Positions 6,341-18,733 of a stretch of 41,374 nt of DNA are shown piece after piece; the first letter of the stretch is position 1, and each line of letters opens with the position of its first letter. The position numbers were made by a program, and so were the translations under genes. The notes under the pieces were generated by a model. The model ran no database searches. It saw only the letters and a program-made list of their open reading frames with translations, and was not told the DNA's origin. This DNA comes from a virus. The stretch is taken from the IMG/VR virus record IMGVR_UViG_3300008448_000206, positions 1-41,374 of that record. One strand, given 5' to 3'.

Positions 6341-6573
6341 TGCGCGGCAAGCTCTACCCGTTTTTTCGGTTATTTACCTCTAGGCTTCGGTTACTTCTTT
6401 CCCCTTGTTTCTATTACCTTTTTCCCTCTTTTATACTCTCTACCTCTATTTTATTAAATTGAAAATAGAATATATAAGAACGTATAAGATAAGAGAAATA
6501 CATATACATAGTAGTCTTACAACTACGGCGCGTAATAGGGAGAAGAAAACCGGGTGCGGCGAAACCTACTTAC

Positions 6574-6603
6574 CGTATATGTAAATTTGCATATGCGTAT
6601 AAT
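6574..6603 (+). promoter_or_regulatory. Rightward promoter P1 with palindrome in the -35 region
   Basis: A perfect TATAAT lies at 6598-6603. Immediately upstream is an 18-bp near-perfect palindrome, ATATGTAAATTTGCATAT (6577-6594), extended by CG/CG pairs to 6574-6597. No good -35 hexamer lies 17 bases upstream (GTATAT), so the palindrome probably binds an activator or repressor. It would drive the early gene at 6734 with a leader of ~125 bases. Confidence 0.6.
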
Positions 6604-6622
6604 ACCCGGCGGCCTTCCGGGT
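6604..6622 (+). other. Inverted repeat at the P1 start point
   Basis: ACCCGG (6604-6609) and CCGGGT (6617-6622) pair around a 7-base loop, at and just after the expected P1 transcription start. It would form a 5'-terminal hairpin in a P1 transcript. Confidence 0.6.
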
Positions 6623-6635
6623 AAGCATATTCGTA

Positions 6636-6654
6636 TAAGGCAAAAAGCGCCTTA
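6636..6654 (+). other. Leader hairpin TAAGGC / GCCTTA
   Basis: TAAGGC (6636-6641) and GCCTTA (6649-6654) pair around AAAAAGC. It lies in the leader of a P1 transcript. No U-run follows, so a terminator is unlikely. Confidence 0.55.
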
Positions 6655-6669
6655 CACTTACTCACTACT

Positions 6670-6703
6670 TACCGTTGCTTTCCTACTGGAAACACGGTAT
6701 ATT
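6670..6703 (+). promoter_or_regulatory. Rightward promoter P2 covered by a nested inverted repeat
   Basis: TTGCTT (6675-6680), a 17-base spacer and TATATT (6698-6703) form a good sigma-70 promoter ending ~30 bases before ATG 6734. The same stretch holds a nested inverted repeat: TACCGT/ACGGTA (6670-6675 and 6694-6699) outside TTTCC/GGAAA (6679-6683 and 6688-6692). It may act as an operator over P2, or as an RNA hairpin when transcribed from P1. Confidence 0.6.
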
Positions 6704-6733
6704 CGCCTACACGAAACCAAGTAGGGGCGAAAA

Positions 6734-7129
6734 ATGAAATTTCCAATAGTCACGAGGGCGCAAGCGCACGCGCAAGGCTTGAAGCGTTTTTATAACGGTA
6801 AGCCGTGTAAGTATGGGCACGACGCGCAACGCTTCGTATCGACGGGCGTTTGTTGCGCTTGCAACGCGGCCCGCTCCAAGATTTTCTCCCGGGCCAAGGC
6901 AGGCGACGAGAAGGTTTTTTCGTACCACTTGCACCCCGACGACGTAGCGGCCGCGCTGGCCTATTGCCAAGCGCTCGACATTCAACGGGGCCGCGTTCCT
7001 TTCTCCCCGGATGCACCCGCACGAGGGGCCGAACCCGCCGCCATGCCTGCCGACATTGAGCGGCACCGCGCGACACTCATTGCGAGCTATTCGCAACCGA
7101 GCGCGCCCGCCTACCTTCCGACGCCGTAA
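6734..7129 (+). CDS. Early protein with CxxxH...CxxC zinc motif
   Basis: A 131-residue protein and the first gene of the rightward early block. ATG 6734 follows AGGGGC at good spacing. The N-terminal half has a compact zinc motif: NGKPCKYGHD (C25, H29), then VCCACN (C40, C43), a pattern seen in many small phage proteins and near HNH-type folds. No HNH catalytic core is complete here, so nuclease activity is not claimed. The C-terminal half is Ala/Pro-rich. Its first position behind two strong promoters suggests very early expression, perhaps in host takeover or regulation. Confidence 0.8.
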   Translation: MKFPIVTRAQAHAQGLKRFYNGKPCKYGHDAQRFVSTGVCCACNAARSKIFSRAKAGDEKVFSYHLHPDDVAAALAYCQALDIQRGRVPFSPDAPARGAEPAAMPADIERHRATLIASYSQPSAPAYLPTP

Positions 7130-7144
7130 CGTGGGGGCCAAGCC

Positions 7145-7351
7145 ATGACCTTGATAGAACAGTACGCACCGCCCCCGGCGGGCGAAGGCTGGAAAGATTG
7201 GGCGGGCGGCGAGTGCCCGGAACCCGCCCCCGTTCTCGTTGAATACCGGATGCGTTGCGGCTTGACTTCGACCCGGGGGACGCCTGCGGGCGAGGTGCGA
7301 TGGATGCACGCGGGCAACGGCGGCGACGTTGTAGCGTACCGACGAAAATAA
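7145..7351 (+). CDS. Small early phage protein, RW-x-HxGxGGD-x-VAYR type
   Basis: A 68-residue protein starting at ATG 7145 behind GGGGGCC. It has GEGWKDWAGGECP near the start and ends with RWMHAGNGGDVVAYR. I recognise this pattern from small conserved phage proteins of unknown role. It probably forms one small beta domain. Its stop codon is the start of the A-T rich upstream part of promoter A1. Confidence 0.75.
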   Translation: MTLIEQYAPPPAGEGWKDWAGGECPEPAPVLVEYRMRCGLTSTRGTPAGEVRWMHAGNGGDVVAYRRK

Positions 7352-7401
7352 TTCTTGACATTCCGTATTTCGTATTACATAATTCAGCCATCAACAACGA
7401 A
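7345..7401 (+). promoter_or_regulatory. Promoter A, copy 1
   Basis: TTGACA (7355-7360), a 17-base spacer and CATAAT (7378-7383) form a near-consensus sigma-70 promoter. The spacer and -10 consist of three near-repeats (CGTATTT, CGTATTA, CATAATT). The whole stretch 7345-7401, including A/T-rich upstream bases and the first leader bases, is identical to 21560-21616. The core 7355-7401 is also identical to 9500-9546. It drives the gene at 7420. Confidence 0.88.
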
Positions 7402-7419
7402 TTACGGAAGGAACACCAA

Positions 7420-7716
7420 ATGCAAGTCGCTACCCAAATCCTCGAACAACTCGGCGGGAACCGCTTCGTCGCCATGACCGGCGCAAAACAATTTGTCGGC
7501 GGCGAGCGTTCCTTGCAATTCAGCCTCGGCCGGGGCGCTACCAACAAGGCAAACAAAGTTCGCGTGACCCTCGCGACCGACGATACCTATACCGTCGAAT
7601 TTTTCAACCTGCGGGGCGTCAATTGCAAGCCGTGCGGCGAACCCGTCGAGCGCGTCTATGCCGACCGCCTGCAAACCGTTTTTACCGAAGCGACCGGCTT
7701 CGATACGAGGCTCTAA
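7420..7716 (+). CDS. Conserved small phage protein (FVAMTGAKxF type)
   Basis: A 98-residue protein after promoter A1. ATG 7420 follows AAGGAACACCAA. It contains NRFVAMTGAKQFVGG, a KANKVRVTL strand, VEFFNLRG and the ending YADRLQTVFTEATGFDTRL. This is a widespread phage and mobile-element family of unknown function, probably a small mixed alpha/beta domain. It lacks cysteine pairs of note (a single CKPC). Confidence 0.85.
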   Translation: MQVATQILEQLGGNRFVAMTGAKQFVGGERSLQFSLGRGATNKANKVRVTLATDDTYTVEFFNLRGVNCKPCGEPVERVYADRLQTVFTEATGFDTRL

Positions 7717-7718
7717 CC

Positions 7719-7955
7719 ATGCAACGCACCATCGAACAATGGCGGGGGTGCGCCCCTGCCGTTATGGCTACCCAGCAAAGCCCCGTCGCGATTCAATTCG
7801 CCTTCGAGGATGCCAAGGCCGATATTCTCGCGCTCTACGCCCTCGCCGAACGTGTCGCACGCCTCAACCCGGCGGCGGGCGAGATTGGCCCCGGAATGTT
7901 GGCCTCGCTCGTTGAGCAAGCGCGGCACTTGACAAACTCGACAAGTAGTACATAA
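7719..7955 (+). CDS. Small early protein; its end carries an operator-promoter
   Basis: A 78-residue, mostly helical protein starting at ATG 7719, two bases after the preceding stop. No family recognised. Its last codons read LTNSTSST because promoter B1 lies inside the coding sequence. Its TAA (7953-7955) is part of the -10 box for the next gene. The DUF2800 gene ending at 17396 finishes with a similar peptide for the same reason. Confidence 0.7.
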   Translation: MQRTIEQWRGCAPAVMATQQSPVAIQFAFEDAKADILALYALAERVARLNPAAGEIGPGMLASLVEQARHLTNSTSST

Positions 7956-7956
7956 T
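7928..7956 (+). promoter_or_regulatory. Promoter B1 with palindromic operator
   Basis: TTGACA (7929-7934), a 16-base spacer and CATAAT (7951-7956). The 18-bp imperfect palindrome CTTGAC-N6-GACAAG (7928-7945) covers the -35 and half the spacer. The expected start of transcription is about 7963, which is the A of the next gene's ATG. Confidence 0.8.
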
Positions 7957-7962
7957 CACGCC

Positions 7963-8145
7963 ATGAAGACCCCAAATTTACCCAGCGGCTACACGTGCGG
8001 CCATTGCGGCCGGTTCGCGAAATTTTCGGCATGGCTCTTTGCCCATTGGTACGAGCCAGTCATTCACACGTGCGAATGCGGCGCGCGTAGTCAGCTTGTC
8101 GAAGGCCGCGCAACTCTCAAACATCAACCCACGAAAGGCAAATGA
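7963..8145 (+). CDS. 60-residue zinc-ribbon protein, probably leaderless
   Basis: Has CGHC near residue 12 and CEC near residue 37, a plausible four-ligand zinc ribbon with His help. ATG 7963 lies seven bases after the B1 -10 box and has no ribosome site, so a B1 transcript would begin at or next to the start codon. Function unknown. The next gene follows with overlapping or adjacent start, suggesting one operon. Confidence 0.72.
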   Translation: MKTPNLPSGYTCGHCGRFAKFSAWLFAHWYEPVIHTCECGARSQLVEGRATLKHQPTKGK

Positions 8146-8147
8146 TC

Positions 8148-9041
8148 ATGACCCCCAAGCCGATAAATTCTCTCAAGGCCCTAGCCGAAGGCAAGACCGA
8201 CGGTTTCCAAAAGGCCGCATATTTCAAAGTTCGCCCGGATAAAGTCGAGTTCGAACAGGGCTTCAATTTGCGCGAGGAAGGCGCGGAATTGACCGAGCAT
8301 ATCGAACGCCTTTACCACGCCATGAAGGCGGGCGCGTACATTCCCCCGATTGACGTTTCGGTTATCGACGGCCGGGTTCTCGTTCGCGACGGCCATTGCC
8401 GCACCCGGGCCGCCCTGCGCTTGCTGGGGGAGGGCGTCGAGTATCTCTTGGAGGCGCGCCAATTGCGCGGCAACGACGCCGACGCCGTGTTTCATATGCT
8501 CGGCTCGGGTCAGGGCAAACACTTTACCCCCTTGGAGCAAGGGCGCGGCTTCCTGCGGCTTACCAACATGGGCCACACGGTCGCCGAGATTGCCGCGCGT
8601 ACCGGAATGCACCGCTCAACCGTGGAGAACGGCTTGGCACTCGCCGAGGCCCCCGTGGCCGTGCAAAAGATGATTGCCGAGGGTAAGGTGGCCTCGCATA
8701 CCGCGCTCAAGGCCGTACGCCAAGAGGGGGCCGCCAAGGCTACCGAGAAACTCGCGGCAGGCGTCAAGGCGGCCGAGAAGGTCGGCAAGAAGAAAGCCAC
8801 GGCAAAGCATATCGACGGCCCCAAGGAACGCGGGCAAACCCTGCCGCCGAAGGAAACCGCCGCCCCCGTGCCGCCCCCGCCCAAGCGTCGCGCGGCCGAC
8901 AAGACCCTCGAAGATAAATGCGTCGAGTTCGTTCGCGCCCTCGCCGACCGTAGCACGCTTGTAACCTATCAAACGCGCGACTTCGTGCAATTGATCGAGG
9001 CCGCTTACGATATTGTCAGCCCCGAGGAACCCAAGAAATGA
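8148..9041 (+). CDS. ParB-like DNA-binding protein
   Basis: About 297 residues. Residues ~75-95 have the ParB/Srx core (VLVRDGHCRTRAA, compare DGHRR in ParB). Residues ~135-165 have a helix-turn-helix (TVAEIAARTGMHRSTVENGLAL). A Lys/Pro-rich linker (~210-250) and a C-terminal helical domain follow, as in chromosome and plasmid partition proteins. No parA partner or repeated parS-like site is visible nearby, so it may be a regulator, a replication accessory or a nuclease-like ParB homologue. ATG 8148 fits the AAAGG spacing. ATG 8142, overlapping the preceding TGA, is the alternative. Confidence 0.85.
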   Translation: MTPKPINSLKALAEGKTDGFQKAAYFKVRPDKVEFEQGFNLREEGAELTEHIERLYHAMKAGAYIPPIDVSVIDGRVLVRDGHCRTRAALRLLGEGVEYLLEARQLRGNDADAVFHMLGSGQGKHFTPLEQGRGFLRLTNMGHTVAEIAARTGMHRSTVENGLALAEAPVAVQKMIAEGKVASHTALKAVRQEGAAKATEKLAAGVKAAEKVGKKKATAKHIDGPKERGQTLPPKETAAPVPPPPKRRAADKTLEDKCVEFVRALADRSTLVTYQTRDFVQLIEAAYDIVSPEEPKK

Positions 9042-9211
9042 GCCAAGCCCCCCACACTTGCGCCGCCCGACCGGGGGCCGATCAACAAATGCGGTGCGCC
9101 CGGTGCGGCCTCGTTTGGGATATTGACGACCCCGAGCCGCCCACGTGTCGCGACGAGCCGGTGCCGAAACCGAAAGTCAAGAAACCCAGCAAAAGGAAGC
9201 CGAAGCAATGA
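9038..9211 (+). CDS. 57-residue zinc-ribbon protein
   Basis: Starts at ATG 9038, overlapping the ParB-like stop by four bases (ATGA). It contains CARCGLVWD and a third cysteine in PPTC, plus C8, so four cysteines could hold zinc. The end is very basic (KPKVKKPSKRKPK), suggesting nucleic-acid binding. I know similar CxRCGLVWD proteins from other phages. No function is assigned. Confidence 0.75.
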   Translation: MSQAPHTCAARPGADQQMRCARCGLVWDIDDPEPPTCRDEPVPKPKVKKPSKRKPKQ

Positions 9212-9294
9212 CGCTCGACACTATCGCCCGCCTCGCCCAAACGGTCGCGGCCATCGCCACGACGGCGGCTTGCCTCAAGTTCCTACTATCATGA
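9208..9294 (+). CDS. 28-residue translationally coupled peptide
   Basis: ATG 9208 overlaps the previous stop (ATGA), and its own TGA overlaps the next ATG in the same way. The peptide is Ala/Thr-rich with a hydrophobic centre (TVAAIATTAACLKFLL), perhaps one short membrane helix. It could be a real peptide or a coupling leader for the next gene. Confidence 0.45.
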   Translation: MTLDTIARLAQTVAAIATTAACLKFLLS

Positions 9295-9467
9295 TTCGCG
9301 CATGGCTCGCGGGCTTGTTGGCCGCCCTGTTCCCGCCGAAGCCATTCGAGGCCCCGCCCCTTAACCGTGCCGAACGAAGGCGAAAGCAACGCCAACGAAC
9401 CCCCGGCGGGTGCGGGTCAAGCGATTGGCAAGCAAGATACCGGCGATGGAAGCTCAACCGCAAATAA
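9291..9467 (+). CDS. 58-residue basic protein with hydrophobic N-terminus
   Basis: Starts at ATG 9291, overlapping the stop of the 28-residue frame. Residues 1-14 (MIRAWLAGLLAALF) are hydrophobic. The rest is strongly basic and includes NRAERRRKQRQR. It may be an inner-membrane-anchored nucleic-acid-binding peptide. It is the last gene before a strong terminator. Confidence 0.6.
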   Translation: MIRAWLAGLLAALFPPKPFEAPPLNRAERRRKQRQRTPGGCGSSDWQARYRRWKLNRK

Positions 9468-9488
9468 AGCCCTTCGGGGCTTTTTTTT
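9467..9488 (+). terminator. Rho-independent terminator
   Basis: AAGCCC-TTCG-GGGCTT hairpin (9467-9482) followed by eight T (9481-9488). It closes the operon 7963-9467, just before promoter A2. Confidence 0.95.
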
Positions 9489-9499
9489 CGTTTTAGGGC

Positions 9500-9546
9500 T
9501 TGACATTCCGTATTTCGTATTACATAATTCAGCCATCAACAACGAA
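9500..9546 (+). promoter_or_regulatory. Promoter A, copy 2
   Basis: TTGACA 9500-9505 and CATAAT 9523-9528 with a 17-base spacer. Its 47 bases are identical to copies at 7355 and 21570. Unlike those, its upstream flank is GTTTTAGGGC, so identity begins at the -35. Confidence 0.88.
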
Positions 9547-9559
9547 ACGAGGCCCCAAA

Positions 9560-9784
9560 ATGAAAAAGTTCGAAGCCGGTAAGACCTACACGACCCGCAG
9601 TATTTGCGACCATGATTGCGTTATCTCGGTCACTATCGAGAAGCGCACGGCCAAGACGGTAACGGCCACGGTTCGCGGCGAGTCGAAAACCTTTCGCGTT
9701 GCCGAGTACGACGGCGCGGAATTTATCAAGCCGTGGGGTTCGTACTCTATGGCCCCTATCATCAACGCAAACGACGGGAAATAA
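9560..9784 (+). CDS. Conserved small phage protein (YTTRSICDHDC type)
   Basis: A 74-residue protein from ATG 9560 after promoter A2. It contains GKTYTTRSICDHDCVISVTIEKR, TAKTVTATV and the ending SMAPIINA. This is a small family I recall from many phages and prophages, of unknown function, probably a compact beta barrel. The ribosome site is weak (GAGG). Confidence 0.8.
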   Translation: MKKFEAGKTYTTRSICDHDCVISVTIEKRTAKTVTATVRGESKTFRVAEYDGAEFIKPWGSYSMAPIINANDGK

Positions 9785-9786
9785 TC

Positions 9787-10083
9787 ATGGAAACAATCGA
9801 CCTCACGCCCACATGGGCCGCAGTTCTCCCGATCCTCTTGGCCGCAATGGAGAACGGAACCGACGAGGGCCGCAGGCTGGCCCGCGAAGAATTCGCCCGT
9901 ATGGCTCAGGCGGCCGACAAGTACAACCAAGTCACGAGCCGCGCCCTAAAGGCCCTCGCGAAAACCTTCCCTTATGCCGACAAGGCCGTATCGCAGGAAC
10001 TAGCCGACGGCGGCGTGGGGATGCGGGAAGACCTCGACGCTATCGAAGACGCCCGCGACGTTTTGGCGAAATTCGGGCCATGA
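9787..10083 (+). CDS. 98-residue helical early protein, unknown
   Basis: ATG 9787 lies two bases after the previous stop, with GGGAAA upstream. The protein is acidic and almost wholly helical, with a hydrophobic N-terminal helix (WAAVLPILLAAM). No family recognised. It overlaps the next gene by four bases, so the three genes 9560-10238 form one operon from promoter A2. Confidence 0.7.
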   Translation: METIDLTPTWAAVLPILLAAMENGTDEGRRLAREEFARMAQAADKYNQVTSRALKALAKTFPYADKAVSQELADGGVGMREDLDAIEDARDVLAKFGP

Positions 10084-10238
10084 GTAAGCCCCGCACCCGG
10101 TACGGTATCCTCGACGACTTCGGCGAGGTCATTCGCTGGCAATGGGATAAACCCTCGTCGAATTACCGTTACATTGTCGAGCGCGTAAAGGTCGCCCCGG
10201 CCGTCGATTGGAACAACTTCGAACCCGCCCTATTCTGA
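10080..10238 (+). CDS. 52-residue conserved small phage protein
   Basis: Overlaps the previous stop (ATGA at 10080). Contains RYGILDDFGEVIRWQWDKP and YRYIVERVK, a pattern I recall from short phage proteins of unknown function. Last gene before a strong terminator. Confidence 0.75.
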   Translation: MSKPRTRYGILDDFGEVIRWQWDKPSSNYRYIVERVKVAPAVDWNNFEPALF

Positions 10239-10255
10239 GCAACTCCCAAAAACCG

Positions 10256-10278
10256 AAGGCCCCCGAAGGGGCCTTTTT
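10256..10278 (+). terminator. Terminator at convergent gene ends
   Basis: AAGGCCCC-CGAA-GGGGCCTT hairpin (10256-10275) followed by TTTTT (10274-10278). It stops the rightward operon immediately before the end of the leftward prim-pol gene at 10279. It may also slow the opposing transcripts. Confidence 0.92.
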
Positions 10279-12639
10279 CTATTGCGGCTTGACTTGTTGC
10301 GCCGCCGTGTATGCCTTGGCTATCTCGGCCGCCCCGCTCAACCATCGGTCGGGGTGATTGGCGAGGATGTAGAGTTGCGGTTTCTTGCCGTCGGGTTGCA
10401 CGGGGTTATTTACGCGGCCCTCGGGCAAGCCCGGGTGCGGAATGTAGCCCATGCCCTGCAAGAGTTCGCGCCGCTTGTTGAGGCTCAGGCGGCCGCCCAT
10501 TTTGAGGGTTTCGGTAACGAGGCGGTCGAGCATGACCGACGATACCCAGCCCCCCATAAATCCGGGCGTGTCTTGCGCGATCACTTCGGCGATTTGTTGC
10601 TCGACGCCGCCCCGGCTTTCTTGCATGGCCGCGTCGGTCGTTGAGGTATGCGGGGCGCGGTGGCAGGCCCCGGCGGGGTTGAACTCGGGCGGGATTTGAT
10701 AGGTATAGAGGAAATCGGTAATCGCCGCGAAACCTTCGGCCCGCGCCCATGCGTATAGCTTGGGGAAGTAATCGCCGCTCATGCCGTCGCGTTGAATGTC
10801 GGCGTAGGATTGTTGCCCCGTGTAGAACAGGGCGAAGCGGCGGGCCGTGTCGGGCGTCTTGCGAACGGCGGTTTTATGGTTGGTCGTGGCGATGAAGTTC
10901 GCGCAAATTTCCATCGAAAATTGATCGACGCCCTTTTGCTGAATCTGCACGCCGAAACCGCCCGTAATCAAGACCATGAGCCGATTTACTACGTCGTCGC
11001 TCGAATGGTCTTGCCCCTTCAATTCCTCAAGGGCGACGAAGATTTTATCGGCGATCCATCCGTTAAATTGGCTTGCTATGTCGTCGGCGAGGGGCCAGTG
11101 CGTGAAATGCTGGCCGACGGCCATTGCCACACAAGCCGAGAAAAAGGTTTTCCCGTTGCCTTCGCAACCCTGCAACACGGGGCACCAAGGGAATTTAACG
11201 CCCTTGTGTTGCACGCACGCCGCCATATAGGCGAGCAGAATTTGCCGGTCGCGCTCGTCGGGGAGAACCTTCGCCAAGTGCGTAAGGAAGGGGGTAACGT
11301 CGCCCGGGGCGCGCTTGACCTCGGCGGGCCAATAGGTATTGACCCGCAGGCGGCCCGCGTCGTTGATGATGCTGCCCGGGGGTTGGTCGGGCTTGAAACA
11401 AATCGTATCGGCTCGGGGGGCGCGCAATACCTGCGACTCGGTGAAAGCCTCCCAAGCGTTGCGCGTCGTGCGTTCATTTACGGCGTCCATTGCGAACACG
11501 TAGCCGCCGAACGCGACCCGGAATTGGTCGGGCTTGAGCATTGCGCCCCCGGGCACGAGTACGCGGTGGCGGTCTTGGATATACACGCACCCCGCAAAGA
11601 GCGTTTTTTGCGCCTCGGGTGATAGGAAGGTATGCCCGGTCACGTCGGCGGGGATTGGGGCGGCTTCCGTGGCCCTTGGCGTGGCCGCCGCTTCCATTGG
11701 CTTATCCTGCAAAACGTCGCCGGGTTGCGAAAGTATCGCGGCAATCGTTCGGGGCAAGTAATCGTCGCGGTGCCACTTGTCGCGCACGAGGCCCGATTGC
11801 ATCATGAGCGATTTAATTCGCTCACCGTGGCGACCCGTCCAAAAGGCAAGGTGCGAAGCGAGCGCGGCGTCGGCTTGGCTCGCGTCATAGGCCCGCCCGC
11901 CCCCGTCAGGGTAAGCCACGGTCAAGGCGTCGGCGTTCGCTTCCCAAAGGTCGGCGAATGATGCGCGGCCGCCGAAGACATTCGAGGCGCTCTTGCTGCG
12001 AAGGGCGCGCCGGATCAAGTCGGCGTCGTCGGTCGGCCCCCGCCATTCAGGCACGGGCGCGTCGCTCAAAGAGAAATCGCCGTCGGCCCCCGAGGAAGCC
12101 CCGGCCGGGAAGTATTCGGCCGTCACGGCATGGAGGGCGGCGGTATGGTCGGTCGCCGCGTCGCCTTGCGCCCCGACGCCGGTAAGGGCGACGAAACGCA
12201 ACTCGGTATAGAACTCAAGCCCGAGGGCGGTATTTTTCTTACCGTGGGCAGGCGCGCGGCCGGTGCCGAAAATGTGCATTCCCTTACCCGATTGGCTCAT
12301 TTCCATAGCCGCGCCCGGGAACATGGAGGCCAAGCGCAAAGCAACCGGCGACCATTGCGAGCCGTCGAAAGCGTTGTCTATGTCAATGAAGAAAAACGGG
12401 TCGGATTCCTGAAACGAGAAAGCCACGCCGAAGCCTTGCCCCCACGCGCTCGCAACCGCGCAAGCATGGTCGGCGGTCGTCCAATTCGCGGGGTCGTGCG
12501 CGGTGCAAACCTGCCCCGTGTGGGGGCTTACGGGTAGCTTGTCCATCTTGCCCGGGATGCGTTGCGAGGGCACGAGGGCATAACAAAGGAATTGACGGTA
12601 CGCCGCCATAGCGGCCAAGGCTGGGGGCAAACTTTGCAT
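10279..12639 (-). CDS. Primase-polymerase / SF3 helicase fusion
   Basis: A 786-residue replication protein. The N-terminal ~200 residues look like an archaeo-eukaryotic primase (prim-pol) domain: FFFIDIDNAF (D86, D88), SQSGKGMHIFG (S117...H122) and GLEFYTELRFVALTG (third catalytic region). The C-terminal part is a D5/SF3-like helicase with Walker A GCEGNGKT (491-498), Walker B-like KIFVALEEL (532-540), sensor FIATTNH and arginine finger region RRFALF. The plan resembles NrS-1-type primase/helicases. It probably primes and unwinds DNA for the phage polymerase. ATG 12639 follows AAGGGGG at good spacing. Longer reading into the upstream gene is rejected. It is co-transcribed with the mini-TetR gene. 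Confidence 0.92.
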   Translation of the reverse strand: MQSLPPALAAMAAYRQFLCYALVPSQRIPGKMDKLPVSPHTGQVCTAHDPANWTTADHACAVASAWGQGFGVAFSFQESDPFFFIDIDNAFDGSQWSPVALRLASMFPGAAMEMSQSGKGMHIFGTGRAPAHGKKNTALGLEFYTELRFVALTGVGAQGDAATDHTAALHAVTAEYFPAGASSGADGDFSLSDAPVPEWRGPTDDADLIRRALRSKSASNVFGGRASFADLWEANADALTVAYPDGGGRAYDASQADAALASHLAFWTGRHGERIKSLMMQSGLVRDKWHRDDYLPRTIAAILSQPGDVLQDKPMEAAATPRATEAAPIPADVTGHTFLSPEAQKTLFAGCVYIQDRHRVLVPGGAMLKPDQFRVAFGGYVFAMDAVNERTTRNAWEAFTESQVLRAPRADTICFKPDQPPGSIINDAGRLRVNTYWPAEVKRAPGDVTPFLTHLAKVLPDERDRQILLAYMAACVQHKGVKFPWCPVLQGCEGNGKTFFSACVAMAVGQHFTHWPLADDIASQFNGWIADKIFVALEELKGQDHSSDDVVNRLMVLITGGFGVQIQQKGVDQFSMEICANFIATTNHKTAVRKTPDTARRFALFYTGQQSYADIQRDGMSGDYFPKLYAWARAEGFAAITDFLYTYQIPPEFNPAGACHRAPHTSTTDAAMQESRGGVEQQIAEVIAQDTPGFMGGWVSSVMLDRLVTETLKMGGRLSLNKRRELLQGMGYIPHPGLPEGRVNNPVQPDGKKPQLYILANHPDRWLSGAAEIAKAYTAAQQVKPQ

Positions 12640-12652
12640 TCGAGAGGCCCCC

Positions 12653-12967
12653 TTAATTCGCGAGCGATTGCAAAGCGCGTTGCCGCAATTCCTCGGGGGC
12701 TTTGAGCGCGTGGCGATCCCGTGCGGCCAAGCCTTGAGCAATCACGGGGAGGCACTCGGTACGCACGGCCTCGCGCATGATATGGCGGCGAAGCTCGGGC
12801 ATGGTGCCAAGATGGTAAGAAATCAGCGTCGGCGGGATTCCGGCTTTCTTCGCGATTTCGTCGCGGGTAATGCGGGAATATGTCGTATCGCTATGACAAA
12901 GGGCGAGGGCGGCCGTCAGGATTTGGGCGACTCGCTCGCGGGCTTCTAGTTTGATTTGTGGTTTCAT
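12653..12967 (-). CDS. Mini TetR-type helix-turn-helix regulator
   Basis: 104 residues. Residues ~28-60 (YSRITRDEIAKKAGIPPTLISYHLGTMPELRRHIMREAV) match the TetR N-terminal DNA-binding domain: helix-turn-helix, then the YHLGTMPELRR helix entry. Normal TetR proteins have ~200 residues with a ligand and dimerisation domain. Here only about 40 residues follow (IAQGLAAR...LKAPEELRQRA). I recall similar short proteins from other phages. An operator-promoter (B2) lies immediately upstream, suggesting self-regulation. It is the best candidate to bind the four CTTGAC-N6-GACAAG sites. The pairing of protein and sites is inference. Confidence 0.85.
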   Translation of the reverse strand: MKPQIKLEARERVAQILTAALALCHSDTTYSRITRDEIAKKAGIPPTLISYHLGTMPELRRHIMREAVRTECLPVIAQGLAARDRHALKAPEELRQRALQSLAN

Positions 12968-12976
12968 AGTGCCTCA

Positions 12977-13006
12977 AGGATAAAACGACTTGTCGGTTTC
13001 GTCAAG
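12977..13006 (-). promoter_or_regulatory. Promoter B2 with palindromic operator (leftward)
   Basis: On the minus strand TTGACG (13005-13000), a 17-base spacer and TATCCT (12982-12977) lie between the VRR-NUC stop and the mini-TetR start. The palindrome CTTGAC-N6-GACAAG spans 12989-13006. Expected start of transcription is within about three bases of ATG 12967, so the leader is very short or absent, although GAGG lies just before the ATG. Confidence 0.72.
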
Positions 13007-13501
13007 TTACAAAGTACCCGGCCCGGTAGCGAAAGACGCATCGCCGCCGCACGAGTTTATCAAGTTGCACCATGCCAATTGCGCAACCTCCCGCCCCGCC
13101 CCCGTATATTGCCATCCCGGGGCCTTAATTTCACGCGAAACAAATTGCCCGAACGTGTGGCCGACGTGGTGCGGCAGGATCACAAGGGGGCGAATACCGA
13201 TCAAGTCGCCCGATTTGATTACCTCGTTCATTTTGGCCGAGTCATTGCCGAGGCCGTAGCGCACGGGGCGGCCGGTCTTGTCTTCCAAGACGCCGACGTT
13301 ATTTCGAAACAACTTTACGCCCTTCTCGCTCGCTTCAAGCCGCACGACGGATTGCGCCCACGCCTCGGATTTGCCCGCGCCCGGGGCCTCGGCCGGTAGC
13401 GGCGGGGTATAGGTGCCGAGCGTAATTTGCAAGTCGCGGAAGGCTTCGACGGTAAGCGGCTTGCCCGCGTTTCGGTTGAACCATTCGTGTAAGTCGTTCA
13501 T
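13007..13501 (-). CDS. VRR-NUC family nuclease
   Basis: 164 residues. The C-terminal ~100 residues show the PD-(D/E)xK pattern of VRR-NUC: SGDLIGIRPL (D99), FVSREIK (E124, K126) and REVAQLAW (Q141). Such nucleases cut branched DNA or flaps and are often next to SF2 helicases in phages, as here. It overlaps the helicase stop by four bases and was probably translated with it. The N-terminal ~60 residues are a variable helical part. Likely role: resolving replication or recombination intermediates. Confidence 0.88.
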   Translation of the reverse strand: MNDLHEWFNRNAGKPLTVEAFRDLQITLGTYTPPLPAEAPGAGKSEAWAQSVVRLEASEKGVKLFRNNVGVLEDKTGRPVRYGLGNDSAKMNEVIKSGDLIGIRPLVILPHHVGHTFGQFVSREIKAPGWQYTGAGREVAQLAWCNLINSCGGDASFATGPGTL

Positions 13502-15228
13502 GCGGGGATCACTCCATGCGTATCAAGTAAAGTTTTGATTTTGAGGGTCAGGGCTTCGGCGTCGGGCCGCCCGAGGGCTTGCGCCGTCAGTACGTCAAGG
13601 CCGAACGTATGGTAAAAAATCCGGTAACTTTGCGAATCGTCGCGGCCTTGGTGCCGTTGCCAGCCCGCCCAAAGCGCGATCATTTCGCGCAAGACGTGTT
13701 GCGCTTGTTGCCGCTCGTGGTGCCTGTTCATGAGGCCCCGGGCGGCCATCGGGTCGAGCGATTGCGGTATGCGCGGCGCGCCGTCAATGTTGGCGACCTT
13801 CCCGCGCAAGGCGGCGAGCGCTTCCGGGGTCAGTTCGTGCAAGTCACCATCGACAAATTCGGGGGCGCTACGCTCGGGCGGCTCGGGGTAGAACCCGCAG
13901 TACGGGCACGTCTTGAGGAACCGGGGGTAAATCGAAGCGCACGGCGTACCCTGCCCGTCGGCGTTCTCGTTCGCGCACGCACGAAGCGGCACGGCGTCGG
14001 AAGGCCCCGAGCTACGGCGTTCGCGCCGGTCGAGCGTGTCGTTACGGGGGGCGTCGGGCAAGCCGTGGCGAATGACGTTGCCCACGTGGTCGATAATCAG
14101 GGCGACGGGCTTACTACTCGCGGCGATGTTGGCGCGGCGTTCCTCGTCGCTCAGGGTGCCCCAAATAGCCGAGAGGTCGGCCGGGATCATGAGGCGCAAA
14201 GCGCGGCCGAATTGCTGCACAAACAGGGGCCAAGATTCCGTCTTGCGAACCATGCTCACGACCTCGATTGCCGGAAGGTCGAAGCCTTCGCCGAACAAAT
14301 CGACATTGACCAATTGCATAACTTGGCGCGTCTTGAACCGGCGCAAAATTTGAGTGCGCAAGAGGGCGGGCGTCTTCGCGCTCACGATTTCGGCGGGCAC
14401 CCCGGCGGCACGGTAGGCGGCGCAAATCTCCTTCGCTGATTCAATATCGACCGCGAACGTTACGCCAAGTTTGCCCGGGGCAATCTTGAGGTAATGTTTC
14501 ACCACGTCGCCCACGATCTTGTCGGAAGCATGAACGGCCGCGCGTAGCTTGGCGGGCGAGAAGTCACCCGAGGCGGTCACGGTCACTTCGGAATAATCAA
14601 CGTCGGAAGGCGGCGCGAACACGCGGTAATCGGTCAGGTATCCCGCGTCGATAAGTTCGCGAAGCTCGGGGCCTTGCACGATACCTTCGAAAACCCCGTC
14701 GGCGTGCGCCCCCAGCCCGCGACCGTCGGCACGGGCAGGCGTGGCCGTGACCCCTAGCCCGTAGGCATTCGGGAACATCGAACACGCCTCGCCCCATTTG
14801 TTCTCGCGCAAGACGTGGTGCGCTTCGTCCATATCCCATAGGCCGACTTGATGAAACCAAGGGTCGCCGGAAGCCTTGCGACCGACGAGCGTATCGACGG
14901 AACACACGCCAACGCGCGCCCCGGGGTTGTAGAACGACCGGCCGAATTCTTCCATGTGGAGGGTTACGCAATCCCGCCGCAAAGAGTCGGGGCCGATTAC
15001 CCGGTGCGCTATGCCTTCGCGGGCAAGCGCTACCGACTTTTGCGTTACGAGTTCCGAACGGTGCGCAATGCTCGCGACCGCGCAATTCATGTCGCGCACA
15101 ATGTCGGCGGTGATCACGGTTTTACCCGAGCCGGTCGGCGACTTGACGAGAACGTTTCTTTTTCCGTCGTTCCAGTGCTGGAAAACGGCGGCTTTGATAC
15201 CAAGTTGGAAAGGGCGAAGGCGGCTCAT
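13498..15228 (-). CDS. SF2 DEAD/DEAH-box helicase
   Basis: 576 residues with the SF2 motifs in order: Walker A SPTGSGKT (30-37), Ia around IAHRSELV, DEAH at 134-137, III-like GVTATPAR (159-166), and VI QQFGRALR (~335-342). A Cys-rich stretch follows (C...C then CPYC, ~410-445), probably a zinc-binding module. An all-helical C-terminal domain ends the protein. It probably unwinds DNA during replication or recombination with the VRR-NUC partner. It is the first gene of the leftward replication operon, from the divergent promoter at 15268-15296. Confidence 0.93.
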   Translation of the reverse strand: MSRLRPFQLGIKAAVFQHWNDGKRNVLVKSPTGSGKTVITADIVRDMNCAVASIAHRSELVTQKSVALAREGIAHRVIGPDSLRRDCVTLHMEEFGRSFYNPGARVGVCSVDTLVGRKASGDPWFHQVGLWDMDEAHHVLRENKWGEACSMFPNAYGLGVTATPARADGRGLGAHADGVFEGIVQGPELRELIDAGYLTDYRVFAPPSDVDYSEVTVTASGDFSPAKLRAAVHASDKIVGDVVKHYLKIAPGKLGVTFAVDIESAKEICAAYRAAGVPAEIVSAKTPALLRTQILRRFKTRQVMQLVNVDLFGEGFDLPAIEVVSMVRKTESWPLFVQQFGRALRLMIPADLSAIWGTLSDEERRANIAASSKPVALIIDHVGNVIRHGLPDAPRNDTLDRRERRSSGPSDAVPLRACANENADGQGTPCASIYPRFLKTCPYCGFYPEPPERSAPEFVDGDLHELTPEALAALRGKVANIDGAPRIPQSLDPMAARGLMNRHHERQQAQHVLREMIALWAGWQRHQGRDDSQSYRIFYHTFGLDVLTAQALGRPDAEALTLKIKTLLDTHGVIPA

Positions 15229-15246
15229 AAATTTAATTTCGTATCA

Positions 15247-15275
15247 CTTGACAAGTTCGACAAGACGAGTATATT
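15247..15275 (+). promoter_or_regulatory. Promoter B3 with palindromic operator (rightward)
   Basis: TTGACA (15248-15253), a 16-base spacer and TATATT (15270-15275). Palindrome CTTGAC-N6-GACAAG at 15247-15264. Drives the gene at 15328. Its -10 overlaps the -10 of an opposing promoter. Confidence 0.78.
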
Positions 15276-15296
15276 TCGTTACGCGATTACCCGCAA
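15268..15296 (-). promoter_or_regulatory. Leftward promoter facing B3
   Basis: On the minus strand TTGCGG (15296-15291), a 17-base spacer and TATACT (15273-15268). Expected start is near 15261, inside the B3 palindrome. Drives the helicase/VRR-NUC genes. A protein bound to the palindrome would block both directions. Confidence 0.68.
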
Positions 15297-15327
15297 CCCT
15301 TTTACCAACTTTCGAAAGGTTCGAACC

Positions 15328-16239
15328 ATGAAACTAAGTATTGACCTCGCCGACCGCGAAGAAATCGCCGCCGCCGTGCCGCTCTTGCAATTGATCCTCG
15401 ACAACACGCCGAAGACTTGCGGCGGCCAGTGCCACGCCCACGAACACACGGCCCCCGTGCCGAACGTACCGACCGCCGCGCCCGTTGCGGAAATTTCGCA
15501 AGACCCGGCCGCCGTCTTTGGAGGTGCCGCCGTAGCCGCCCCTTTGCCCCCGGCCGTTGCCCCCTTTACTGCGGGTGCCGTTCCGTTGCCGATTGCCCCC
15601 GAGGCTACGACGGCGATTACTTCCGGCGCGACGTTGAGCGCCCCCGTACCGAATGTTCCGACCGCCCCCGGTATGGTTGCCCCCACGGCCTCGGGTGCGG
15701 CCCCTTCGACCCCTGCAAGCGGCGTTGAACTCGACAAAAACGGTTTGCCGTGGGATGAACGCATTCACGCGGGCACGAAAACCAAGCTCAAGTCGGGCGA
15801 ATGGAAAGCGAAAAAGAGCGTTGATCCCGCATTGGTCGCAAGCGTTGAATCCGAATTGCGCGCTCGCGTGGCCGCTTCCCCCGCACCCGTTGCCGCCGTG
15901 CCTGCGGTGCCCGCCGCCCCGGCCGTTGATCCTGCCGCCGTTTTTGGCGCGGCGGCCCCGGGGGTGCCGCCCGTTCCCGTCATCCCTACCGCTCCCCCGG
16001 TTGCGCCCTTAGCGCCTGCCGCAACGGTTGCGCCTTCGGTAAGTGCCGACCCGGCGACGTTTGAGCAACTCATGCCGCGCATTACCGCCGCCGTGACCGC
16101 CGGTATCATGCCGCCGACCGCCGTAGGGGCCGCGTGCGCCGCCCACGGTGTCGCCTCGGTCGTGACCTTGCAGCAAAGCCCGCAATTCGTGCCGCTCGTT
16201 TGGGCAACCCTGAAACAACAATACCCCGCCCTCGTATGA
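15328..16239 (+). CDS. Pro/Ala-rich phage protein with LPWDERIH motif
   Basis: 303 residues from ATG 15328 behind GAAAGGTTC. Two long Pro/Ala/Val-rich linkers flank a short conserved core, ELDKNGLPWDERIHAGTKTK followed by a WKAKKSVDPALV helix. I have seen this core in many phage proteins encoded beside ssDNA-binding and recombination genes. The C-terminal ~70 residues are helical (FEQLMPRITAAVTAG). DPAAVFGGAA-like motifs at ~59-68 and ~213 recur in the SSB encoded at 17428. Probably a replication or recombination accessory protein. Not further identified. Confidence 0.78.
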   Translation: MKLSIDLADREEIAAAVPLLQLILDNTPKTCGGQCHAHEHTAPVPNVPTAAPVAEISQDPAAVFGGAAVAAPLPPAVAPFTAGAVPLPIAPEATTAITSGATLSAPVPNVPTAPGMVAPTASGAAPSTPASGVELDKNGLPWDERIHAGTKTKLKSGEWKAKKSVDPALVASVESELRARVAASPAPVAAVPAVPAAPAVDPAAVFGAAAPGVPPVPVIPTAPPVAPLAPAATVAPSVSADPATFEQLMPRITAAVTAGIMPPTAVGAACAAHGVASVVTLQQSPQFVPLVWATLKQQYPALV

Positions 16240-17396
16240 GCGCCCACGCCTTTCTCGCGCCGTCCTCGGCTTTCCGTTGGGTGCGTTGCGCCCTCTCGGC
16301 GAGCCTTGAGGCGGCCTATCCTGAAACCGAGGCCAGCCCGTCGAGCCTTGAGGGAACGGCGGCGCATTGGGTCGTGCAAATGCTCTTGCAGGGAACGCCC
16401 GTTGCGCTCGACATGCAAGCCCCGAACGGCGTAGCAGTAACGCAAGACATGCTCGAAGCGGCCGAACTCGTGCGCGACGACATTCTCGCAACGCTGGGGC
16501 CGGATTGGGCGCAATACCTTGTCATCGAACGCCGCGTGCAAATCCCGCGCGTGCATCCGACGCACAATTGGGGCACGCCCGACTATCGCGCATGGTCACG
16601 CCTCAACAATGGCCGCCTTTGCTTGCACGTGTGGGATTTCAAATATGGGCACGGGATCGTCGAGGCCCCGGAAAACTGGCAATTGATTGACTACACGGCG
16701 GGGCTACTCGACGAGGCAGGTATCGACGGTTTGCAAGATCAAGAAACCGTCGTCGATATGGTCGTGATCCAGCCGCGAGCGTTTCACCGCGACGGCCCCG
16801 TGCGGCGTTGGCGCGTGGTTGCTTCCGACTTGCGCGGCCATATCAACCGCCTGAGCAATGCGGCGGGCGAGGCGCTCGCGTCGAATCCGAAGGCAACGCC
16901 GACGCCGGAAGGTTGCGAAAATTGCCTCGGTCGCCACGCCTGCGAAGCGTTGCAGCGTGCCGCGTACCATGCCGCCGACAAGGGCGGCCAGTACGGCGCG
17001 CTCGACCTCACGCCGCACGCCTTGGGGCTTGAACTGCGCACCCTAAAACGGGCGCAAGCCTTGCTCGAAGCGCGCGTAACGGGGATCGAAGCGCAAGCCG
17101 TGGCATCTATCAAGTCGGGGGCGTTGGTGCCGTTTTGGGCAATGGAAAGCGTACCCGGCCGCCTTGCATGGACGAAGCCCGCCCCCGAAATTTTCGCACT
17201 CGGGGAAATGCTCGGCCTCAAGTTGCAGAAAGACCCCGAGCCGATCACGCCCACGCAAGCGAAGGCCGCCGCCAAGGTTGCCAAGATTGACGGCGCGTTG
17301 TTCGACGCCTACGCAACCCGACCGGCAGGCGCGGCAAAACTTGTCGCCGACGACGGCGCAAAAGCCCGCTTGACATTTTCGACAAGTAATACATAA
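16236..17396 (+). CDS. DUF2800 RecB/Cas4-like nuclease with likely Fe-S cluster
   Basis: 386 residues, overlapping the previous stop (ATGA). The PD-(D/E)xK core has E39 (SSLEGTAAHW), D116 (GTPDYR), D134/K136 (WDFKYG) and Q149. C18 near the N-terminus plus C227, C230 and C236 (CENCLGRHAC) copy the split Cys pattern of Cas4/AddB nucleases that hold a 4Fe-4S cluster. Likely a DNA exonuclease in recombination or replication. The last codons (LTFSTSNT) are shaped by promoter B4, whose -10 contains the stop codon. Confidence 0.88.
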   Translation: MSAHAFLAPSSAFRWVRCALSASLEAAYPETEASPSSLEGTAAHWVVQMLLQGTPVALDMQAPNGVAVTQDMLEAAELVRDDILATLGPDWAQYLVIERRVQIPRVHPTHNWGTPDYRAWSRLNNGRLCLHVWDFKYGHGIVEAPENWQLIDYTAGLLDEAGIDGLQDQETVVDMVVIQPRAFHRDGPVRRWRVVASDLRGHINRLSNAAGEALASNPKATPTPEGCENCLGRHACEALQRAAYHAADKGGQYGALDLTPHALGLELRTLKRAQALLEARVTGIEAQAVASIKSGALVPFWAMESVPGRLAWTKPAPEIFALGEMLGLKLQKDPEPITPTQAKAAAKVAKIDGALFDAYATRPAGAAKLVADDGAKARLTFSTSNT

Positions 17397-17397
17397 T
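17369..17397 (+). promoter_or_regulatory. Promoter B4 with palindromic operator
   Basis: TTGACA (17370-17375), a 16-base spacer and CATAAT (17392-17397). Palindrome CTTGAC-N6-GACAAG at 17369-17386. It lies inside the end of the DUF2800 gene; the TAA at 17394-17396 is in the -10 box. It drives the SSB gene at 17428. The leader ends with GAAAGGTTCAAACC, nearly the same as before the gene at 15328. Confidence 0.82.
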
Positions 17398-17427
17398 TGC
17401 AACTCCACTAACTGAAAGGTTCAAACC

Positions 17428-18501
17428 ATGAAAACCGATTTCCTTACCCCCGTCGGCCGCCTCGTTCAAGGCGACCCGTTCGAAGCCCAAACTAAAAACA
17501 TGCAAGGGCAACCGCTTGTCACCATGAGCGGCCAGCCGACGCAACGTTTCTTTATCGCCGTTGCCTTCCGCAAAGACGACGCCAATTTCGGCGCGTTTTA
17601 CCAAAAGCTCGTCGAGGCCGCCCGGGGTTCCTTCCCGAACCTGTTCAACGCGCAAGGCCAATGCTCGCACCCGCGCTTCTCGTGGAAGCTCATGGACGGC
17701 GACGGCGTGGATGAAAACGGCAAGAGCAACGCCACAAAAGAAGGTTTCGCCGGTCATTGGGTCGTCAAGTTCTCGTCGTCTTTCGCGCCGCGTTGCTTCC
17801 ACGCGGGCCACTATCAACCACATGAGCAAATCCAAGATAAAAACGCCATTCAGCGCGGCTATTTCGTGCGCGTCGCCGGTACTATCGAAGGCAACGACAA
17901 CGCACAAAAACCGGGCCTCTACGTGAATTTGTCTATGGTTGAACTCGCAGGCGTCGGCCCCGTGATCACGAGCGGCCCGGATGCGGCGAGCGTCTTCGGC
18001 GGTGCGGCCCCTGCCCTGCCCCAAGGCGCGCAACCCCTGCCAATGCACGCGGCGGCCGCCCCTGCAATGCCCGGGATGCCTGCCGCGCCCGCCATGCCGG
18101 GAAACGCTTACCCCGCCGCCCCTGCCCCTGCGGTTCCGGGCTTGCCGCAAATGCCTACGGGGGTGCCGTCAATGCCGAATGGAGTTGCCCCCGGTGCGAC
18201 GATGTACCCTTCTAGCCCCGCGCCTGCCCCGGTCGCCGTGCCCCCGAATCCCGCTTTTTTGGCGGGGCCGGGAGGTGTTCCCGGTGCGGCCGCCCCGGCA
18301 GTTGGGATGCCTGCGCCAGCAATGGCCCCGGGTGTTGGTGCCCCGATTGCCTACCCTTCTAACCCTGCCCCGGTAGCGCCCGCCCCCGTGGCCCCGGCCG
18401 TGCCGCAAATGACGGCGGCGGCAGGCGGTGCGACGTATGAGCAATTCCGCGCCCAAGGTTGGAACGACGAGCAAATGCGCGCCCAAGGCTACCTCGTATG
18501 A
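17428..18501 (+). CDS. Single-stranded DNA-binding protein (DUF2815 type) with Pro/Ala/Met-rich tail
   Basis: 357 residues. The first ~175 match DUF2815-like SSBs with an OB-fold: FLTPVGRLVQGDPFEAQTK, RFFIAVAFRK, WKLMDGDG and GHYQPHEQI...AIQRGYFVRVAGTIEGN. The rest (~180-330) is low-complexity Pro/Ala/Met/Gly, probably a disordered tail. The end TYEQFRAQGWNDEQMRAQGYLV is a short helical motif I recall from such proteins, possibly a partner-binding tail. It would coat ssDNA during replication. Its own promoter (B4) suggests high expression. Confidence 0.85.
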   Translation: MKTDFLTPVGRLVQGDPFEAQTKNMQGQPLVTMSGQPTQRFFIAVAFRKDDANFGAFYQKLVEAARGSFPNLFNAQGQCSHPRFSWKLMDGDGVDENGKSNATKEGFAGHWVVKFSSSFAPRCFHAGHYQPHEQIQDKNAIQRGYFVRVAGTIEGNDNAQKPGLYVNLSMVELAGVGPVITSGPDAASVFGGAAPALPQGAQPLPMHAAAAPAMPGMPAAPAMPGNAYPAAPAPAVPGLPQMPTGVPSMPNGVAPGATMYPSSPAPAPVAVPPNPAFLAGPGGVPGAAAPAVGMPAPAMAPGVGAPIAYPSNPAPVAPAPVAPAVPQMTAAAGGATYEQFRAQGWNDEQMRAQGYLV

Positions 18502-18686
18502 CCAAGCGGGCCGCCTCTACCAAGAAAGCCCCCACGGGGGCGGGGCGGCCCCGTCTTGGCGATGAAGCCATGAAGCCGCGAACCATTCGCATGACCGACG
18601 CGCAAGCCGAGAAGCTCGACCGGCTCGGCGGCGGCGCATGGGTTCGCGACCGAATCGACAAAGCCAAAGACCCGGCCGAACAGTGA
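18498..18686 (+). CDS. 62-residue ribbon-helix-helix-like protein
   Basis: Overlaps the SSB stop (ATGA). Basic N-terminus (TKRAASTKKAPTGAGRPRLGD) followed by PRTIRMTDAQAEKLDRLGGGAWVRDRI, which fits the strand-helix-helix plan of small Arc/MetJ-like DNA-binding proteins. A second possible phage regulator, beside the mini-TetR. Targets are not known. Confidence 0.72.
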   Translation: MTKRAASTKKAPTGAGRPRLGDEAMKPRTIRMTDAQAEKLDRLGGGAWVRDRIDKAKDPAEQ

Positions 18687-18733
18687 TCAACCGCGCGCCC
18701 CTTCGGGGGCCGCTTTACTCTTGAGGTAGGAAG

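Follow-up and report, generated by a model that had tools for sequence, protein, structure and literature searches.

A truncated TetR-type protein and its candidate operator at replication-gene promoters of diverse phages

In a viral sequence of 41,374 nucleotides (IMG/VR record IMGVR_UViG_3300008448_000206, analysed over its full length and hereafter called the window), the palindromic element CTTGAC-N6-GACAAG lies over predicted promoters of replication genes and directly before the gene of a 104-residue TetR-type protein, here termed mini-TetR. Judging from the sequence, we consider it likely that mini-TetR is an autoregulated repressor that blocks the sigma-70 promoters of these replication genes. 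The pairing of gene and site recurs in many unrelated phages and probably represents a widespread, undescribed mode of early-gene control. With less assurance, we lean towards a broader proposal, in which the protein family PHROG 8723 would act, in lytic phages infecting many different hosts, as a widely distributed, ligand-free master repressor of the TetR type that controls both early and replication promoters, with one operator design kept across dozens of lineages, a specificity that shifts with a changed recognition helix and a leaderless repressor mRNA in one clade.

Operator copies and their association with the mini-TetR gene

The element occurs in four exact copies, at 7928-7945 (+; operator 1, CTTGACAAACTCGACAAG), 12989-13006 (-; operator 2, CTTGACGAAACCGACAAG), 15247-15264 (+; operator 3, CTTGACAAGTTCGACAAG) and 17369-17386 (+; operator 4, CTTGACATTTTCGACAAG), just as an earlier, sequence-only reading had listed them. 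There is no fifth exact copy in the 41,374 bases, where hand arithmetic (12 fixed bases, both strands) gives an expectation of about 0.005. With up to three mismatches allowed, 58 matches were counted, palindromes being scored once per strand, as compared to a mean of 21.2 in 100 shuffles. The impression that no further close copy exists was thus borne out for exact copies; the nearest other place is 32867, within the predicted tape-measure gene, which alone has two mismatches on both strands, and five further places carry two mismatches on one strand only. Operator 1 covers the -35 element of the zinc-ribbon and ParB-like operon promoter, operator 2 that of the mini-TetR and primase promoter, making it the putative autoregulatory site, and operator 4 that of the promoter of the single-stranded DNA-binding protein (SSB) gene. 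Operator 3 occupies the divergent gap between the helicase (-) and the LPWDERIH/DUF2800 genes (+). Operators 1 and 4 are located within coding sequence, at the 3' ends of an open reading frame (ORF) at 7719-7955 and of the DUF2800 gene, respectively. The gene sets that had been named behind the four sites stand, with one addition: because the 15247 site is located between two divergent operons, the minus-strand helicase/nuclease operon is a probable second target.

Loss of the palindromes from relatives that retain the gene had been named as the outcome speaking against a regulatory link, and most near relatives keep them. Counting by contig (at most one mismatch in 10, within 140 nt, with a chance of about 1% per region estimated by hand), we found the site before the mini-TetR gene in 11 of 12 near-relative contigs, L005 being the one without it there, so that the position from which self-control had been suggested is conserved. 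In L004 the site at mini-TetR is off-position and carries a mismatch, and L002 and L003 are nearly identical in this region. Sites were likewise found in the helicase/LPWDERIH divergent gap (10/11 contigs), before the ParB/zinc-ribbon operon (5/5) and before the SSB gene (5/8). Across these relatives the operator arms are kept before the same four operons and N6 drifts; the core common to the family is the 16-bp TTGAC-N6-G(T/A)CAA.

The gene itself belongs to a conserved module. When viral contigs were searched with the helicase alone (of 564 relatives in the first 600 stretches, the best 80 were taken), mini-TetR was present downstream of the helicase on the same strand in 73 of the 80 loci. 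Six of the seven others are contigs that end within 3.1 kb past the helicase, one of which (L037) is the same contig as L004, a carrier of mini-TetR; the seventh, L078, has no mini-TetR in 10 kb. The gene order is primase / mini-TetR / nuclease / helicase, divergent from LPWDERIH / DUF2800 / SSB / PolA, and it is also seen, with local changes, in Klebsiella phage JD001, Edwardsiella phage MSW-3 and Pantoea phage AAM22.

The decisive count was made in 101 TetR-positive loci (near-duplicates and the window dropped) and used exact 5-base arms with gaps of 0-20, amounting to 21,504 patterns and involving no weight matrix. The two strongest patterns were TGACG-N4-CGTCA (127 vs 4.3 expected) and TTGAC-N6-GTCAA (94 vs 3.2 expected), which are two registers of the same operator, and TTGAC showed enrichment at no gap other than 6. 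The 45 helicase loci that lack TetR had the operator at chance frequency (1 vs 0.96 expected). By this distribution, TTGAC-N6-GTCAA is the putative operator of a whole phage family. The next-ranked patterns, TTCGC-N3-GCGAA and GCGAA-N17-TTCGC, were set aside as mostly pentapeptide-like coding repeats in few contigs. A de novo search of distant phages (at most one mismatch, three shuffles each) returned TTGAC(G/A)-N4-(C/T)GTCAA, with 7 sites vs a shuffle maximum of 4 in vB_KsaM-C1, 6 vs 3 in AAM22 and 6 vs 5 in Scuro; in MSW-3, its 5 sites (shuffle maximum 3) tied with a repeat. The same search did not place the operator at the top in the window or most GC-rich relatives, palindrome counts with mismatches being swamped in such GC-rich sequence.

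A position-matrix scan of the genome and its relatives, proposed earlier as a check, pointed the same way. Using a symmetric position weight matrix (PWM) trained on 28 sites from the loci scanned, we obtained 249 sites in 95 TetR-positive loci as compared to 11.0 in shuffles. Among 96 TetR-positive loci with the module, not de-duplicated, there were 247 sites, 78 loci having at least one and 61 at least two, corresponding to 1.39 sites per 10 kb vs 0.13 in eight TetR-negative module loci, which together hold 2 sites and include no locus with two. A fifth TetR-negative module lineage, Proteus phage RS10pmA, has no site. A further 39 TetR-negative helicase loci lacking the module carry 13 sites in 665 kb (0.20 per 10 kb), with two sites in two of the loci. 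By protein cluster, at least two sites were found in 32 of 58, kinship being handled in these counts solely by near-duplicate removal or clustering. The contigs L070, L073 and L075, which break off before any TetR gene could appear, hold 2, 1 and 3 sites, and among phage fragments in which the helicase or the region behind it lies outside the fragment, vsMR has 2 sites and TPWB-08 and RHph_Y2_4 have 0. In JD001, 12 sites reach at least 13 bits, 10 of which lie 36-68 nt before an annotated start (measured by hand). The genes behind the JD001 sites encode small proteins of unknown function, a nuclease, TetR, helicase/gp49, SSB and the baseplate spike; of the remaining two sites, one overlaps the annotated gp24 start and one is inside the tape-measure gene.

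Promoters beneath the operators and the mini-TetR protein

A consensus scan of positions 6500-18700 yielded 7 sigma-70-like promoters vs a mean of 3.4 (standard deviation 2.2) in 50 shuffles. Four of them start within the operators, in keeping with the claim that each copy sits on a -35 element: TTGACA-16-CATAAT at 7929, TTGACA-16-TATATT at 15248 and TTGACA-16-CATAAT at 17370, all on the plus strand and matching 11/12 consensus positions, and the predicted mini-TetR promoter (12977..13005, minus strand), TTGACG-17-TATCCT starting at 13005 (9/12), whose -10 element ends 9 nt before the ATG. The 102 TetR-positive loci hold 258 sites; for 181 of these, in one orientation, TTGAC is spaced 16-18 bp (most often 17 bp) from a -10-like hexamer, an arrangement found at 7.65% of 4,000 random positions. 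The palindrome thereby spans about -36 to -21, comprising the -35 element plus spacer, and by sequence it covers both the target promoters and the promoter of mini-TetR itself. Two further predicted promoters, at 7355 and 9500 (11/12 each), have no operator and may be unregulated or under other control. They share a 48-base identical stretch, CTTGACATTCCGTATTTCGTATTACATAATTCAGCCATCAACAACGAA, within 7354-7405 and 9499-9550, in which TTGACA is present and the second operator arm is absent.

In 14 of the 42 TetR promoters examined, the mini-TetR ATG lies 4-9 nt past the best -10 element; the distance is 25-34 nt in 27 others and 14 nt in one. The 14 short-leader cases are the window (12965-12985) and 13 relatives whose proteins are 53-80% identical to that of the window (L001, L003, L006-L011, L013, L019, L040, L043 and L045). 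The -10 element is poor in four of them (L006, L011, L043 and L045), and in L010 and L011 another ATG lies a short way upstream of the mini-TetR start. Given a -10 element only 4-9 nt before the ATG, the mini-TetR mRNA of the window clade is predicted to be leaderless or nearly so.

Mini-TetR matches PHROG 8723, a family of unknown function, with an E-value of 1.3e-24 (residues 5-103 of 104, positions 19-116 of a 251-position profile), as do all 30 members of our first alignment (A1), the JD001 protein included. A tblastn search with an E-value limit of 0.01 detected the protein in 92 phage records; of the 60 that were listed, many carry a TetR annotation. In Pfam, the window protein alone gave a weak HTH_24 match and no TetR_N match at E 0.001 or better, besides a partial BetI match at 3.8e-4; TetR_N matched 49 of 72 family members (best 1e-12), identifying an N-terminal TetR-type helix-turn-helix (HTH). 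In a profile search of the PDB, all 60 listed matches were TetR-type regulators by name or family. The HapR/LuxR model NF040929 matched 11 of the 72 members (best 5.8e-8), the window protein not being among those matched at E 0.001. AlphaFold2, run with 72 sequences, predicted a TetR fold with a local-confidence score (pLDDT) of 94.5 and helices at 9-26, 35-42, 46-53 (recognition helix), 56-69 (alpha4), 73-81, 85-88 and 92-103. The top Foldseek match of this model was LuxR with DNA (7amn, E 2.5e-3, template-modelling score by query 0.61), no match reaching E 0.001. In a fold comparison, TetR regulators were nearest (Z up to 10.8; LuxR with DNA Z 9.6, root-mean-square deviation 2.0 over 96 residues), with the tool's warning that helical models reach such Z scores by common arrangement.

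Past alpha4, the model contains only the three short helices between residues 73 and 103 and no C-terminal helical ligand-binding domain, so that mini-TetR is a predicted TetR-type HTH protein rather than a full TetR regulator. The C-terminal ligand-binding domain of TetR proteins comprises about 130-150 residues. The earlier description, a TetR protein with almost no ligand domain, accordingly agrees with the modelled 104-residue TetR fold from which the ligand core is missing. Of 95 proteins measured, 92 are 92-126 residues long and the others 72, 132 and 155; these lengths depend on our start choices, Scuro and SppYZU01 being annotated with 166. Most of the solved chains matched have 178-237 residues, and most of the alignments with solved relatives extend to residues ~150-180 of the full-length chains (ranges only). 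A TetR protein with its ligand core cut out and short C-terminal helices left would fit the model. A near-identity DNA search of a phage collection gave no match, and the window protein, compared with bacterial genomes by a method that reaches close relatives only, gave 5 TetR-HTH-like matches of 31-35%.

Proposed mechanism and competing explanations

The sequence itself shows the sites, where they lie in the promoters, how they are conserved and that they go with the gene; from this we infer binding, dimerisation, repression and timing as follows. Mini-TetR, presumably as a dimer, would bind the 16-bp TTGAC-N6-G(T/A)CAA, the left arm doubling as the -35 hexamer of host sigma-70 promoters and the right arm falling in the spacer. 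Bound mini-TetR would exclude RNA polymerase from the promoters of the primase and repressor, the helicase/nuclease, the LPWDERIH/DUF2800, the SSB and the ParB-like operons. At the start of infection, with no repressor in the cell, these promoters would fire at once, and the accumulating repressor would then cap or shut off the set, resulting in a self-limiting pulse. Because a dimer bound at about -36 to -21 should block polymerase, negative autoregulation is the simplest reading of the site before the mini-TetR gene. Lacking a ligand core, the protein probably senses its own level or a partner protein instead of a small inducer. Genes for a contractile tail and for lysis are present in the window, and the 30 window ORFs scanned yielded neither an integrase nor any other lysogeny gene; a role in lytic timing or level control is therefore likelier than one in lysogeny.

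Several observations weigh against this proposal. Only 7 of the 45 TetR-negative helicase loci that showed the operator at chance carry DUF2800 or SSB, and the eight TetR-negative module loci (9NA-like phages, 1.250.O, LMAVpH and L125) represent about four lineages, few and partly related. Since the matrix was trained on sites from scanned loci, the PWM counts (the 249 sites, the densities and the -10 tests) are partly circular; the exact-arm palindrome count is independent of the PWM and escapes this circularity. Of 95 TetR upstream regions, only 35 reached p <=0.05 when random windows from their own loci served as controls, a count that other true sites in those windows would lower. The presence of mini-TetR in 62 of 64 site-rich loci is uninformative, as that set was defined with TetR present. 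PBb002, which has neither TetR nor the module, carries 2 sites, and P106B (TetR match 3e-8) and OLIVR4 (6e-4) have one marginal site each, of 13.1 and 14.0 bits. Finally, 21 of 113 TetR-positive helicase loci have no site of at least 13 bits, a marine clade among them, for which a pooled count that includes close relatives gave no convincing alternative operator; GTTAGC-N6-GCTATC, a candidate from one member, failed in that count.

At one position of alpha3 (S in LISYH), 29 of the 32 clusters with at least two sites have S, T, N, P or A, compared to 6 of the 15 clusters that lack sites (Fisher 5e-4), though this position was chosen post hoc, kinship is uncorrected and some alignment columns beyond the helix give equal or better scores. 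In 13 of the 21 siteless loci, the residue is other than these five, a suggestive sequence link between missing sites and a changed recognition helix. In the marine clade (L026 6744-6788; L015, L027, L028, L029, L033 and L036), the divergent helicase promoter region holds facing -35-like boxes, TTGAC and GTCAA, about 30-40 nt apart, such that two promoters could share one spacer. In an SFCi1-type clade (L014 1446-1505 and 2510-2555; L017 and L018), TTATTKACY-N4-RGGAAAATAA is repeated at TetR and one other promoter; these two pairs of copies are only suggestive of a shifted operator, and a pooled count of the clade showed nothing clear.

That mini-TetR occupies the sites as an activator, or as a switch for a pair of promoters, appears unlikely. 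It would suit the fact that LuxR with DNA is the best single Foldseek match, that LuxR repression and activation complexes are both among the matches and that some sites lie between divergent operons, but a dimer over the -35 element and spacer should obstruct polymerase, and with a -10-like hexamer at 16-18 bp for most sites the promoters should need no activator. We regard as rather improbable that the sites serve another binder (a host factor, the ParB-like protein or another phage regulator) and that mini-TetR is merely a linked gene. A host factor is hard to reconcile with a site common to phages of Klebsiella, Edwardsiella, Pantoea, Acinetobacter and Vibrio, and phmmer detected the ParB-like gene in only 10 of the 64 site-rich loci. 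The siteless TetR-positive loci would be accounted for, as would the single sites dispersed among other loci and the sites in L070, L073 and L075, contigs that reach no more than 3.1 kb beyond the helicase; against this stand the chance-level counts in helicase loci without TetR and the presence of TetR in 73 of the 80 helicase-fetched loci. By phmmer, the helicase, nuclease, DUF2800, LPWDERIH, SSB and primase genes occur in site-rich loci and also in 4 to 7 of 7 TetR-less loci.

Two further explanations dispense with a repressor altogether. The location of the sites among replication genes could mark them as replication-origin or recombination sites, which we judge very improbable given that they coincide with -35 elements at the right -10 spacing and that in JD001 they also precede genes outside the replication block, across the genome. 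That the repeats are strong -35 boxes with chance symmetry is the least credible: TTGACA is indeed the sigma-70 -35 consensus, and the 7355 and 9500 promoters carry it without a second arm, but a promoter has no need of that arm, which is nonetheless kept in near relatives, and the 30-fold enrichment of TTGAC-N6-GTCAA at one gap only refutes chance symmetry statistically. Repression by mini-TetR stays our preferred reading.

Gene neighbourhood and relation to known systems

The mini-TetR gene (12653..12967, minus strand) encodes the HTH and alpha4, followed by some 35 residues that form short helices. On the same strand, a primase/helicase with NrS-1-type HBD and DUF5906 (10279..12639, start set at an internal ATG) begins 13 nt beyond the stop codon of mini-TetR, and hence the two genes are probably in one operon. 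Upstream follow a nuclease-like protein (13007..13501, minus strand; phrog_93) and the DEAD-type helicase of the replication module (13498..15228, minus strand; assigned by family matches). The plus strand encodes the LPWDERIH-motif protein (15328..16239; phrog_11133), a DUF2800 exonuclease-like protein (16236..17396; family matches) and a Gp2.5/Enc34-like SSB (17428..18501), the latter supported by a PHROG match and a Pfam match below Pfam's cut-off. The first gene past operator 1 (7963..8145, plus strand) encodes a putative 60-residue zinc ribbon with CGHC and CECG motifs recognised by eye and no family match in Pfam or PHROG scans; it precedes a ParB-like protein (8142..9041, plus strand; HTH_ParB, phrog_1033).

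Other repeats were seen in mini-TetR loci. A second palindrome, AGATAAAT-N-ATTTATCT, recurs in L048, L052, L053, L055, L056 and L061, and in L053 and L056 it stands immediately after TTGACA and ahead of TATACT; a different phage regulator may use it as an operator. Dense 15-base repeats occur in L048 (16180-16720) and also in L050, L053, L056 and L063; one frame of the L048 repeat reads ANLRSANLRSADLYGADLYG, a pentapeptide-repeat-like protein downstream of mini-TetR.

If our proposal holds, it provides a ready map of the early regulon for Jedunavirus, Yokohamavirus, CP-T1-like and many uncultured phages, and a function for PHROG 8723. To our knowledge, little is known about early-gene timing in lytic phages that apparently rely on host RNA polymerase. 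Mini-TetR would also be a natural TetR repressor reduced nearly to its DNA-binding part, and hence a compact part for synthetic biology, and the many protein/site pairs make specificity residues testable.

Proteins of this family have been annotated before. JD001 gp45 and CP-T1 gp14, the latter matching the A1 profile at 1e-21, are 'TetR family transcriptional regulators', and annotated phage TetR proteins share the neighbourhood of helicase, nuclease or methylase, and primase. TetR-like regulators were named in phiPLPE, CP-T1 and 138 (Comeau et al., 2012; PMC3391216), in a paper whose main text, by word search, gives no hit for 'promoter', 'operator' or 'palindrom'. We found no report of the operator or regulon in the literature searched, most subscription journals lying outside its reach. 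The earlier suggestion of a possibly undescribed switch thus holds for operator and regulon; the gene is already annotated as TetR-like in many phages, and the regulon is common to many of them.

Mini-TetR resembles the TetR/AcrR repressors (PF00440) in its TetR_N match, its fold, a palindromic operator over the -35 element and autoregulation as judged by position, and differs in being shorter and missing the ligand core. Vibrio LuxR/HapR/SmcR, also of the TetR family, include its best Foldseek match, whereas they are full-length proteins with a ligand/dimer domain and are encoded in bacterial chromosomes. Their consensus operator, for which the literature searched gave no source, has a TTGAT-N6-ATCAA geometry near TTGAC-N6-GTCAA, with longer arms than the phage operator. 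Lambda CI is likewise an autoregulated repressor over sigma-70 early promoters with a leaderless mRNA; mini-TetR differs from it and other phage autorepressors in fold and in the absence of lysogeny genes from the scanned window ORFs. By its sequence, mini-TetR would be a phage autorepressor built from a TetR protein cut to little beyond its DNA-binding part.

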